Notes: a model not told the origin generated them from the letters alone. A stretch of 45,378 bases of DNA from Candidatus Eiseniibacteriota bacterium (GCA_030595835.1 JAUVLG010000013.1:1-45378), one strand, 5' to 3'; positions 31,573-38,870 are shown, counted from the stretch's first letter. Numbers and translations: made by a program.

Positions 31573-32433
31573 TCAGAAGCCCGCCCGCTCCTGAACGACG
31601 ACGGCCCCCATCTCACACCCGATGTCCCGCGCGATGACCGGGCACTTGACCTTGAGCACGAAGAATATCCGGCCGGGCGCCTGGCTCAGGGTCTCGTAAT
31701 TGCCCTGTCCCTTCGCGATGACAATGCCCGCACGCAGGAAGCGCTCGCGGAACTCCGGGGAGCAGTCGTCGAGGATCGTCCCCGGGGCGTCGGACCCGTT
31801 CTCGATGACGGTAACGAGGTCGGTCATACCCACCTCCACCGCGTCACGCATGGTGGCGTCGTTGATGATGGGAGCGCCCCTGACGGCGAAGGTCACCTTG
31901 TCCGTGTCCATCTCCTCGATCAGCACCCTGTCGAAGACGATCTCGCCAGCGTTGTCCCCAACGTAGAGGATGTCGTCCGCCGAATCGACGGCGCGTCTCA
32001 ACGCGTCGAGCGCTCCGTCTTCCAGTGGCCACGCGAGGCTCTCAGAGATGGACCGCTCCACGCCCTCATCGTCGATGTCCGACGTGACCCCGAAATCTAT
32101 GATGTTGCCCGCGACGGCCAGACGAACAGCGGTACCAAACGGGTCGTCGGACTCAGCGACCATGCTCTTCAGCCGCTCGTACAGAGAGAGCGCCAGCGCG
32201 TTGAAACGGTCCTTGACCTCGCGGTAGGGGTCATCCACACCCGTCGCTTCTCTGACGACCCTGTGGATCACCTGCCCCATCGACGGCGGCGTGTCGTCCA
32301 TATCCATCTCGGAGACGGCTTCCGCCACCGCCCGAAGCACGCGGGCGTGCGCCTCGGTATCGTCGCTCGCCATTCGAGCGGCGCCAAGCGCCTGTTTCAG
32401 AAAGCAGGGAACGCAGTCCAGGAATGTCTTCAC
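31573..32433 (-). CDS. DUF89 / ARMT1-like damage-control phosphatase
   Basis: 286 residues of the DUF89 family, metal-dependent phosphatases proposed to hydrolyse damaged or misphosphorylated metabolites such as sugar phosphates. Hallmarks: N-terminal CVPC, GNIIDFGV, the metal and phosphate site ILYVGDNAGEIVFDRVLIEE, IINDATMRDAVEVG, VIAKGQGNYETLSQAP and LKVKCPVIARDIG. Stand-alone bacterial or archaeal size, with the CxxC subfamily form. It is the last gene of the operon starting at 38870, 39 nt after the PHP gene. Substrate is unknown. It converges on the UbiA-TPR gene with only 28 nt between stops and no clear terminator. Confidence 0.9.
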   Translation of the reverse strand: MKTFLDCVPCFLKQALGAARMASDDTEAHARVLRAVAEAVSEMDMDDTPPSMGQVIHRVVREATGVDDPYREVKDRFNALALSLYERLKSMVAESDDPFGTAVRLAVAGNIIDFGVTSDIDDEGVERSISESLAWPLEDGALDALRRAVDSADDILYVGDNAGEIVFDRVLIEEMDTDKVTFAVRGAPIINDATMRDAVEVGMTDLVTVIENGSDAPGTILDDCSPEFRERFLRAGIVIAKGQGNYETLSQAPGRIFFVLKVKCPVIARDIGCEMGAVVVQERAGF

Positions 32434-32472
32434 GTTACCTCGGGGGAACCGCGGGCGCGGCCGTCCTGCCCG

Positions 32473-36693: not shown

Positions 36694-36722
36694 ACTAGCT
36701 ATCCTCTCGCGCACGCATCTGA

Positions 36723-38870
36723 TCAGTCCTGCGCCGGACCGTCGCCCGCCGCGTCACCGGCTCCGCTGCTGCGGAAGATCGATCTTCCCATCATGAAGTC
36801 CGGGGTCTTCACTCCGAAGAGATTGAGGATGGACGGCCCCATGTCGATCAGCCCGGGGCTGTCAGCCACGACCTTGCGGTTGGTGAAGAGAACTCCTGGA
36901 ACAAGCTTGTAGTCGATACAGTGGTCCCCGCTCCAGGACTTGAGGTTGTCATCGATGACCGCCTCGCTCGACTTCCCGACGGCCGCGTCCCAGGACGCTC
37001 TGTAACCGACGTTGTAGCCGATGATGAGGTCAGGCGCCCCGTCGGTGTACGGCCCGCTCATTATCTCCTCGGTGTCGTAGACCGACGTGATGGCGATCTC
37101 GCCGGTGTCCGGGTCCTTGAGTCCCTCGAGCTTGGCTATGATTTCTCTCTTGAGCGCCTTGTACTCGTCCGACTTCACCAGCCCCTGCGCCTCGCGGCCC
37201 TTTTTGTTGATGTAGATCCCGGAGAGCCCCAGTTGGTAGACCTTCGTCTGCGACCAGTCGACGCCGCGCAGATACTCGCTGATGACACTGTCGCTGCCCT
37301 CCATCGCCTTCATGTAGCCGTTCTGCAACGCCCACGTGTTGATGTTCACGCCGCGCTTGAACTGCTTGAAGCCGTGGTCGGAGACCACGCACAGGAGCGT
37401 CTTGTCGTCGACGTGCTCCATCACGCGCGCAAGGAGGCCGTCCATCTTCACGTAGAGCTCCTCGATCGCGCGGGCATGCAGGACGGTGTCCTTGTCGCGG
37501 TTCGACGGGTTCGACGGGTCCAGATAGCGCATGAACATGTGCTGGATGCGGTCGGTCGAATCGAACACCACGACGGTCAGCCCGGTCCGGTTCTTCTTCA
37601 GCGAGTTGAAGAACATCTTCTCGCGCTCTTCGTGTATCGCGTACGTCTGCTCGAGGAACGCCGTCTCGTCTATCATGCGCTCGTTCAGAGCCCACGTGTC
37701 CTCGGCGAGACCGAGCGTCGCGTAGCTGCCCTGAAGCTTCGCCAGATACTGCGAGAACATCGACGGGTCGCTGATGGGCATCGCGGGGTTGTCGGGATCG
37801 ATGTTGATGGGCGTGACGTAGAGTTCGAAGTGAGGACTGATCTGCGTGATGTAGAGCTTGACTATGCCCTTCACCTTCACACCGAGGCCGGCGCTGAACT
37901 CGATGGTCAGCCAGTCCGAGTACTCCCTCTCGGACAGCGAGACCTCGTTGCCGCCGAAGTCGAAACTCACGGCCTTGCTGGACTCGTCGATGGTCGCGGT
38001 GAACGGAACGGTCATTTCACCGGCTTCCGGCCTGAACGGCGACGGCGGACCCGGGAGCTCTCCCCTGACGGTGTTGCCGTCGCGCTGGACCAGAAGCAGC
38101 GTGCCGCCCGTGTAGGCGCCCACCTTCTCGCCGTCGGTCGTGAACATGGTGAAGCTGCCCTGGCTGCCGCGCAGGTCCGGAGTACACATCGCCGAGAGGA
38201 TGACGCCGTTCTTCATCTTCTCAGGCGGGAACGTGATGGGAACACGCAGGACGTGACAGGGCACGTAGCAGTCGTCGAGGACCTTCCAGAAGGTCTTGCT
38301 CTTGCGCATGAGCCGGATCGACGGCTTGCCCACGGGGATGGTGAACTTGCCCAGCTTGATGCTCTTCTCGGGATTGCTGATGCGGGTCGAACTGAGGATC
38401 GGGAAGTACGTCTTCTCGTCGCGTCCGAGGAAGTCGAAGATGTTGTGCCGCGACGCGTCGACGCCGGTGGCGAACGTGGACCATGCCACTGGCGACATCG
38501 ACGGGCACGCGGTCTGGAGCGGCTTGAACGACCCCTCGTCCGCGAGCTTCTTGAAGTTGGGAAGCAACCCCTCGTCCATGAAGCGCTTCGTGAGGGTAGG
38601 GTCGAGCCCGTCGAGACCGAGGACTATGGCGCGCTTGATCTCCGCGGGTCCGCGCAGATGCCGCGACCTGATCGCGCGGCGGAGCGCACGGAACGGCCAC
38701 GAGATGAGCGAGCCGAGTGCCAGGAAGAACGTGATGAAGACAACGGCGAGTGAGCCGACCACGGCGAAGCCCGCCCCCGGGCCAACATAGGCCTGGGCGG
38801 TCTGCGGGTACAGGACGGCCGCGGCTAGCGCGGCCGTGACGACTGTGAGTGTCCTCTTGTGGCTCGGCAT
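36723..38870 (-). CDS. Membrane-anchored alkaline-phosphatase-superfamily enzyme
   Basis: 715 residues, paralog of the lipoprotein enzyme. N-terminus: a signal-like helix ending PQTAQA, then YVGPGAGFAVVGSLAVVFITFF, a motif typical of COG3379 proteins, which together make one or two membrane anchors. Core: AIVLGLDGLDPTLTKRFMDEG (metal Asp87), TACPSMSPVAWSTFATG (Ser126 candidate nucleophile), FDSTDRIQHMFMRYLDP, VSDHGFKQFKRGVNINTW and WSGDHCIDYKLVPGVLFTN. ATG at 38868-38870 has GGAG 4 nt upstream. It is the promoter-proximal gene of the operon, and the lipoprotein paralog follows 29 nt later. Substrate unknown. Confidence 0.85.
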   Translation of the reverse strand: MPSHKRTLTVVTAALAAAVLYPQTAQAYVGPGAGFAVVGSLAVVFITFFLALGSLISWPFRALRRAIRSRHLRGPAEIKRAIVLGLDGLDPTLTKRFMDEGLLPNFKKLADEGSFKPLQTACPSMSPVAWSTFATGVDASRHNIFDFLGRDEKTYFPILSSTRISNPEKSIKLGKFTIPVGKPSIRLMRKSKTFWKVLDDCYVPCHVLRVPITFPPEKMKNGVILSAMCTPDLRGSQGSFTMFTTDGEKVGAYTGGTLLLVQRDGNTVRGELPGPPSPFRPEAGEMTVPFTATIDESSKAVSFDFGGNEVSLSEREYSDWLTIEFSAGLGVKVKGIVKLYITQISPHFELYVTPINIDPDNPAMPISDPSMFSQYLAKLQGSYATLGLAEDTWALNERMIDETAFLEQTYAIHEEREKMFFNSLKKNRTGLTVVVFDSTDRIQHMFMRYLDPSNPSNRDKDTVLHARAIEELYVKMDGLLARVMEHVDDKTLLCVVSDHGFKQFKRGVNINTWALQNGYMKAMEGSDSVISEYLRGVDWSQTKVYQLGLSGIYINKKGREAQGLVKSDEYKALKREIIAKLEGLKDPDTGEIAITSVYDTEEIMSGPYTDGAPDLIIGYNVGYRASWDAAVGKSSEAVIDDNLKSWSGDHCIDYKLVPGVLFTNRKVVADSPGLIDMGPSILNLFGVKTPDFMMGRSIFRSSGAGDAAGDGPAQD

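Follow-up and report, generated by a model that had tools for sequence, protein, structure and literature searches.

A conserved bacterial four-gene module pairing alkaline phosphatase-superfamily paralogues with a distant relative of archaeal YidC

The operon and its conserved core

The genes described here occupy positions 31573 to 38870 of the window, the whole stretch of 45,378 nucleotides from Candidatus Eiseniibacteriota bacterium (GCA_030595835.1 JAUVLG010000013.1:1-45378) in which all coordinates are counted. Six open reading frames (ORFs) are read from the minus strand in the order enzA, enzB, small protein, membrane protein, PHP and DUF89, with intergenic gaps of 29, 85, 1, 34 and 39 nt. 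All six are present on one strand where the first-pass annotation had placed them, and its family assignments are borne out by matches to PF01663 in enzA and enzB, both of the alkaline phosphatase (AlkP) superfamily, and to the PHP and ARMT1/DUF89 families. The first four genes, it will be argued, form a module in which a transmembrane (TM) protein resembling the Oxa1 superfamily accompanies two enzymes and a ribbon-helix-helix (RHH)-like protein. The features, together with the evidence for each, including AlphaFold2 (AF2) models, are:

38908..38936, minus strand: sigma-70-like promoter TTGAAA-N17-TATTAT, from a scan and upstream conservation in relatives
36723..38870, minus strand: enzA, membrane-anchored AlkP-superfamily enzyme (PF01663/COG3379-type), catalytic domain predicted cytoplasmic; family matches, alignment and a clade of its own spanning phyla
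38673..38870, minus strand: N-terminal hairpin of enzA, comprising a hydrophobic first helix (h1), AYVGPGAGFA, TM2 and a K/R-rich linker; found in 35 of 36 homologues
34528..36693, minus strand: enzB, AlkP-superfamily paralogue of enzA, exported (here as a lipoprotein); family match, signal, AF2 model and closest solved folds
36532..36576, minus strand: LADEDRAALASLGYV, a segment resembling the C-terminal tag, right behind the enzB lipobox; in Eisenbacteria enzB only
34248..34442, minus strand: 64-aa RHH-like protein; alignment and weak RHH profile matches
34248..34292, minus strand: C-terminal tag EEIKDKLKGLGYIS and stop of the 64-aa protein; GLGYIS invariant in 45 sequences
33416..34246, minus strand: membrane protein of 276 aa, three-TM and Oxa1-superfamily-like (TM1, cytoplasmic helical hairpin, TM2, immunoglobulin (Ig)-like ectodomain, TM3); profile comparison and AF2 model
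33497..33895, minus strand: ectodomain with an Ig-like fold, lying between TM2 and TM3 and predicted to be in the periplasm; AF2 strands, Foldseek matches to Ig and S-layer domains, and charge
32473..33381, minus strand: PHP-family phosphoesterase, a lineage-specific addition; family match, Eisenbacteria loci only
31573..32433, minus strand: DUF89/ARMT1-like damage-control phosphatase, an addition of the closest lineage; family match, beside the operon only in L035, L036, L039, L040 and related loci

The promoter proposed in the first-pass annotation, running from 38936 to 38908, is the sole sigma-70-like match in 7.8 kb (chance expectation 1.1). Its hexamers are kept upstream of enzA in two related loci (L036 and L038), while a third (L041) carries the variant TTGATA-N17-TATTAT.

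The neighbourhood was surveyed with one genome per species, using the alignment of the small protein alone, a query blind to the neighbouring genes. The best 80 of 270 loci were retained; as they were picked by similarity, very divergent forms are under-represented, and each count below covers only the loci whose contig has room for the gene concerned. The nearest named genomes are those of Candidatus Eisenbacteria, and the submitters' labels of the records further comprise Aminicenantes, Acidobacteria, Krumholzibacteriia, Gemmatimonadetes, Planctomycetota, Omnitrophota, Verrucomicrobia and Deltaproteobacteria, about eight phyla in all. The gene for enzB lies directly upstream of the small gene in 76 of 77 loci, enzA lies upstream of enzB in 54 of 56, and the membrane-protein gene is the next one after the small gene in 77 of 78. 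The few exceptions in order reflect extra genes inserted nearby (L093, L099) or the bookkeeping of overlapping ORFs (L113), and the apparent loss of the membrane protein from one genome (G010) is an assembly artefact, the contig stopping beside the small gene. A divergent form of the module, with a longer small protein, occurs in G027. No further gene is a universal neighbour among the surveyed loci. The genes for enzA, enzB, the small protein and the membrane protein thus constitute a conserved core of fixed order in about eight phyla.

PHP is found in the operon only at Eisenbacteria loci and DUF89 only at the closest loci, and both are lineage-specific additions to the core. The first-pass annotation had read the tight spacing as a sign that all six parts act together, and had proposed to look for their co-occurrence in related genomes. 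Joint action is strongly supported for the four core genes, which are kept together well beyond the lineage of the window, but not for PHP and DUF89; its suggestion that the membrane protein is a partner of the enzymes is well supported by synteny. The accompanying idea that all six genes serve a single system of phosphoryl transfer, both of whose enzymes are extracytoplasmic, can draw on the tight spacing and the single promoter in the window, but is contradicted both by the absence of PHP and DUF89 from the operon outside Eisenbacteria and by the topology of enzA described below, and we regard it as very improbable. The DUF89 protein reaches 236.6 bits against Pfam PF01937 (cut-off 25) and stays under the NCBIfam equivalog cut-off. 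Convergent with the operon, on the plus strand, lies a gene (28938-31544) for an 868-aa protein that combines a multi-TM region at the N-terminus with a UbiA prenyltransferase domain and TPR repeats; its homologues adjoin the operon in five Eisenbacteria loci.

Two enzymes and a membrane protein

The phylogenetic tree separates three clades with a support of 0.99, one of enzA, one of enzB and one of a third type, enzC. The enzA/enzB pair is thus an old duplication that has been kept together, and the two PF01663 enzymes are ancient paralogues, the paralogy having been claimed in the first-pass annotation. In the alignment the seven metal and nucleophile positions of the AlkP superfamily are invariant in enzB (D15, S54, D399, H403, D457, H458, H610) and conserved in enzA (D87, S126, D440, H444, D498, H499, H650). 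Both enzymes thus possess the two-metal Asp/His ligands and the Ser/Thr nucleophile that mark the superfamily, and in both the nucleophilic serine sits in the sequence S-P-V-A-W.

Of the two enzymes, one is predicted to lie on the cytoplasmic and the other on the periplasmic face of the inner membrane. The N-termini of 35 of the 36 enzA homologues show a first hydrophobic stretch, the motif AY[IV]GPGAGFA, a charge-free TM2 and a K/R-rich linker; in the conserved hairpin TM2 is followed by WPFR. The linker contains a median of 7 K/R (minimum 6) and a median of 0 acidic residues, so that by the positive-inside rule the catalytic domain of enzA would be cytoplasmic, whether the first stretch is cleaved or not. 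The type of signal at the enzB N-terminus varies by phylum: Eisenbacteria have a lipobox, Aminicenantes Tat-type signals (RRxFLK), and the other groups Sec signals. It is thus the export of enzB that is conserved and not its route. The first-pass annotation had assigned both enzymes to the extracytoplasmic side, which agrees with the lipoprotein enzB but not with the linker charge of enzA.

The AF2 model of the catalytic part of enzB has a predicted local distance difference test (pLDDT) score of 94. A sequence search of the Protein Data Bank (PDB) with enzB gave no significant relative. The closest solved folds are nucleotide pyrophosphatases/phosphodiesterases (NPPs; Xac NPP and ENPP1) and the phosphonoacetate hydrolase PhnA (E 1e-10, TM-score to the target 0.55-0.60). 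The identity is 10-12%, and the substrate of enzB is not readable from these matches.

The first-pass annotation predicted a three-helix membrane protein and suggested structure prediction as a check; the AF2 model (pLDDT 92) indeed gives three membrane helices. It shows helices at residues 24-46, 49-68 and 73-116, a beta domain at 126-251 and a last helix at 253-267, with a net charge of +5.5 for the helical hairpin and -1.5 for the ectodomain. Taken alone, the membrane protein of the window fits no Pfam family. A profile of 78 membrane-protein sequences matches the archaeal YidC MJ0480 (PDB 5c8j) over TM1, hairpin and TM2 with E=4.4e-10, and a comparison with hhalign gives a probability of 96% (E 2.4e-9). 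At E<=1, 32 of the 78 members match PF01956 (EMC3_TMCO1; best 3.8e-7), and the next family is matched by 7. The Oxa1 core consists of three TM helices with a cytoplasmic hairpin (PMC8675477), and the modelled layout, with its hairpin between TM1 and TM2, fits such a core into which an Ig-like domain has been inserted. Profile and model together place the protein as a distant bacterial relative of archaeal YidC, EMC3 and TMCO1 within the Oxa1 superfamily. A separate 623-aa frame of this genome also matches PF01956 weakly and is probably an ordinary YidC.

A shared C-terminal tag and sulfate-activation genes

The small protein resembles the RHH proteins, as the first-pass annotation had noted, but its scores stay under the cut-offs: 20 of 45 sequences match RHH_1 (best E 0.0019) and 17 of 45 PSK_trans_fac, and a sequence search of the PDB gave no significant relative. 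The six residues at its C-terminus, GLGYIS, do not vary among the 45 sequences, and this tail is more conserved than the presumed DNA-contacting strand. RHH proteins usually bind DNA as regulators, and scavenging is a common task of AlkP hydrolases. The operon could accordingly be an ordinary housekeeping one: phosphate or sulfate esters would be scavenged by the two hydrolases, the RHH protein would be the repressor of the operon, and the membrane protein would be carried along without a related function. Neither the relative conservation of tail and strand, nor the predicted cytoplasmic orientation of enzA, nor the adjacency of the membrane-protein gene over many phyla is expected from this explanation, and it is quite improbable.

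AlkP enzymes and sulfatases likewise end in L..[LM]GY[ILV]. When the genome of the window was scanned with a DNA pattern for this tag, 11 matches were obtained against 1 for the reversed pattern, namely the small protein, nine AlkP-superfamily enzymes (assigned by sequence or by position on PF01663 matches) and one 40-aa chance ORF. The tails of these enzymes read LxxLGY[IL]x (G000 C62, C101, C147, C169, C209 and C265; loci L131-L137, L139 and L141). A tagged AlkP-superfamily protein is also present in 19 of 20 loci from four distant genomes. Outside the window's own family, the mean number of tags per genome is 5.3 where the membrane protein is present and 0.32 in 71 others (Mann-Whitney p=2e-7, or 1e-5 without the small protein's own tag), in a set that has mostly one genome per family and is not fully corrected for shared ancestry. 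Most of the tagged AlkPs are either lipoproteins or proteins of the membrane; enzA and enzB themselves are generally without the C-terminal tag. The LGYI motif was considered as a universal mark of enzB and dismissed, as it is seen there in Eisenbacteria only. G061 (L162:15768-16070) and G027 (L161) encode a second RHH-like protein, which is longer and ends in the same tail.

The tag distribution could be explained by a role in biogenesis, the Oxa1-like protein being a dedicated insertase or chaperone for AlkP enzymes, LxxLGYI marking its clients and the RHH-tag protein sensing the load of clients, either as a regulator or as a competitor. The much higher tag counts where the membrane protein is present would follow, its superfamily relatives act as insertases (PMC8675477, PMC8887752), and the TM hairpin of enzA could be a client. 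However, lipoprotein AlkPs need no Oxa1 insertase, enzA and enzB generally lack the tag, and three AlkPs of one genome (G095) bear it, a search for module genes there having given none. The tag moreover occurs on soluble adenosine 5'-phosphosulfate (APS) kinases: all six that are encoded in the operon (L082, L101, L102, L113, G043, G061) have it appended at the C-terminus, versus 0 of 16 other APS kinases. We consider such a role unlikely.

These kinases belong to a wider association with the formation of 3'-phosphoadenosine 5'-phosphosulfate (PAPS). Genes for Sat, CysC and/or CysQ are found close to the core in loci of Acidobacteria, Planctomycetota, Omnitrophota and Gemmatimonadetes, and are contiguous with it at the same six places; G061 and G043 contain one run sat-enzC'-cysC-enzC-enzA-enzB-small-mem, and the sulfate-activation operon of G061 begins with the second RHH-tag gene. 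Sulfotransferases (10 loci) and PF00884 sulfatases (6 loci) adjoin the module as well, and all 7 distant genomes with the module possess an APS kinase, as do 27 of the 71 others (p=0.002). Near the module lie also APS kinases fused to a DUF2061 membrane domain (L080:2199-2993, and L081:2251-3063 by homology), and several flanks contain an iPGM-type gene (L067:12455-14074, matching the metalloenzyme part and iPGM_N; L113:16742-18409).

It is conceivable from these neighbours, and from the tag on the operon CysCs, that cytoplasmic PAPS is the source of sulfate for an extracytoplasmic acceptor. AlkP enzymes, some in the cytoplasm and some anchored in the membrane, would pass the sulfate on by way of a membrane intermediate, and a reduced form would be kept by lineages that do not synthesise PAPS. 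Yet a search of the window's own genus and genome gave neither an APS kinase nor an ATP sulfurylase, so that the link with PAPS depends on the lineage and sulfate cannot be the universal substrate by the PAPS route. Furthermore, the enzymes have a serine nucleophile in S-P-x-x-W and not the sulfatase motif C/S-x-P-x-R, and to our knowledge there is no AlkP-fold sulfotransferase. We likewise consider this explanation unlikely. The same absence of both genes led us to discard PHP as the adenosine 3',5'-bisphosphate (pAp) phosphatase of the PAPS pathway, together with its 110.6 bits against NCBIfam NF041577 (3',5'-nucleoside bisphosphate phosphatase), far under the cut-off of 400.

A proposed model and its relation to known systems

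The reading that we favour, with a probability of roughly 0.4, is that of a four-gene inner-membrane module in which paired AlkP enzymes act on both faces of an Oxa1-type groove upon an ester-bearing membrane substrate. The three-helix protein would supply the groove, with its hairpin in the cytoplasm and its Ig domain in the periplasm; enzA, held by its TM hairpin, would work from the cytoplasm and enzB from the periplasm. Together they may attach, cleave off or pass on an ester of the phosphate or sulfate type. The substrate would most likely be a lipid, or a molecule linked to one, for which the groove is the place of crossing. A lipid is plausible because insertases scramble lipids in vitro (PMC10491306). 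The RHH-like protein may be a cytoplasmic adaptor or regulator whose LxxLGYI tail serves as a docking tag, and the same tag would recruit further AlkP enzymes and, in several phyla, also the APS kinase supplying PAPS. The conservation, the paralogy, the intact catalytic residues, the predicted topology, the Oxa1-superfamily relationship and the tag with its distribution are results of the computations; the physical complex, the traffic through the groove, the substrate and the role of the tag are what we infer here.

Several observations weigh against this model. The tag occurs on exported AlkPs and cytoplasmic proteins (the small protein and CysC) alike, and one cytoplasmic receptor fails to explain both; the tagged AlkPs of G095 occur apart from any module gene found; and the window's own genome lacks the PAPS genes. 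The curated cut-off of PF01956 is passed in 0 of 98 genomes, and in the Foldseek search with the membrane protein Ig domains dominate, with no Oxa1 structure among the matches listed. As no genome passes the Pfam cut-off and the Foldseek matches listed recover the Ig domain only, the membrane protein is termed here a distant relative and not a filed member of the family.

In its general form the model remains tentative, and slightly more so than for the module itself: a widespread and so far undescribed bacterial system would place AlkP paralogues at both faces of an EMC3/TMCO1-type Oxa1 protein, with LxxLGY[IL] recruiting other AlkPs, the RHH adaptor and, in some phyla, APS kinase, and would process phosphate- or sulfate-lipids across the membrane. 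An envelope lipid or glycan may be the site of phosphoryl transfer or removal, as suggested in the first-pass annotation, with sulfate esters as its rival on account of the flanking genes in other phyla. If the model is correct, the bacterial repertoire includes, in addition to classical YidC, a three-helix protein that resembles EMC3 and TMCO1 and has a dedicated role in an enzymatic system. This would bear on the diversification of the Oxa1 superfamily and on the question whether lipids, besides proteins, make use of its groove, and would account for a gene set without assigned function being held together over about eight phyla. The C-terminal tag is predictive and can be used for finding further members, and most parts of the module are soluble or small enough for testing.

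Compared with known systems, enzB shares its overall fold and metal ligands with NPPs (Xac NPP, ENPP1) and PhnA, but differs in its serine nucleophile and a large insertion (about 660 aa versus 380-410). The NPP family has a threonine nucleophile and an oxyanion-hole asparagine; enzB has serine in place of the former, and when its HGIFDF is aligned by eye with HGIVDN of the NPPs, the latter position appears to be Phe. The small protein shows sub-threshold similarity to the CopG/RHH_1 and PSK_trans_fac regulators, but unlike these has an invariant GLGYIS tail in common with enzymes. With archaeal YidC MJ0480 (PF01956, EMC3_TMCO1/DUF106) the membrane protein shares the order of TM1, cytoplasmic helical hairpin, TM2 and TM3, whereas it is bacterial, has an Ig-like ectodomain between TM2 and TM3, is encoded in an enzyme operon and scores under the Pfam cut-off. 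Bacterial YidC belongs to the same superfamily but has five core TM helices (PMC8887752) instead of three, and the best match of the membrane protein is to an archaeal/EMC3-type profile. According to a 2026 review, the ER membrane protein complex (EMC) and the PAT complex are without obvious bacterial homologues (PMC13261788). A search of open-licence papers gave none on this gene set, COG3379, the tag motif or the families together; the parts come from known superfamilies, and the system as a whole matches, as far as is known to us, no described kind. Among similar systems are also EptA and LtaS, AlkP-superfamily envelope transferases of the periplasm that take groups from lipids. The present module differs in having a paralogue predicted to be cytoplasmic, an Oxa1-type partner and an RHH-tag protein, none of which is known to accompany EptA or LtaS.

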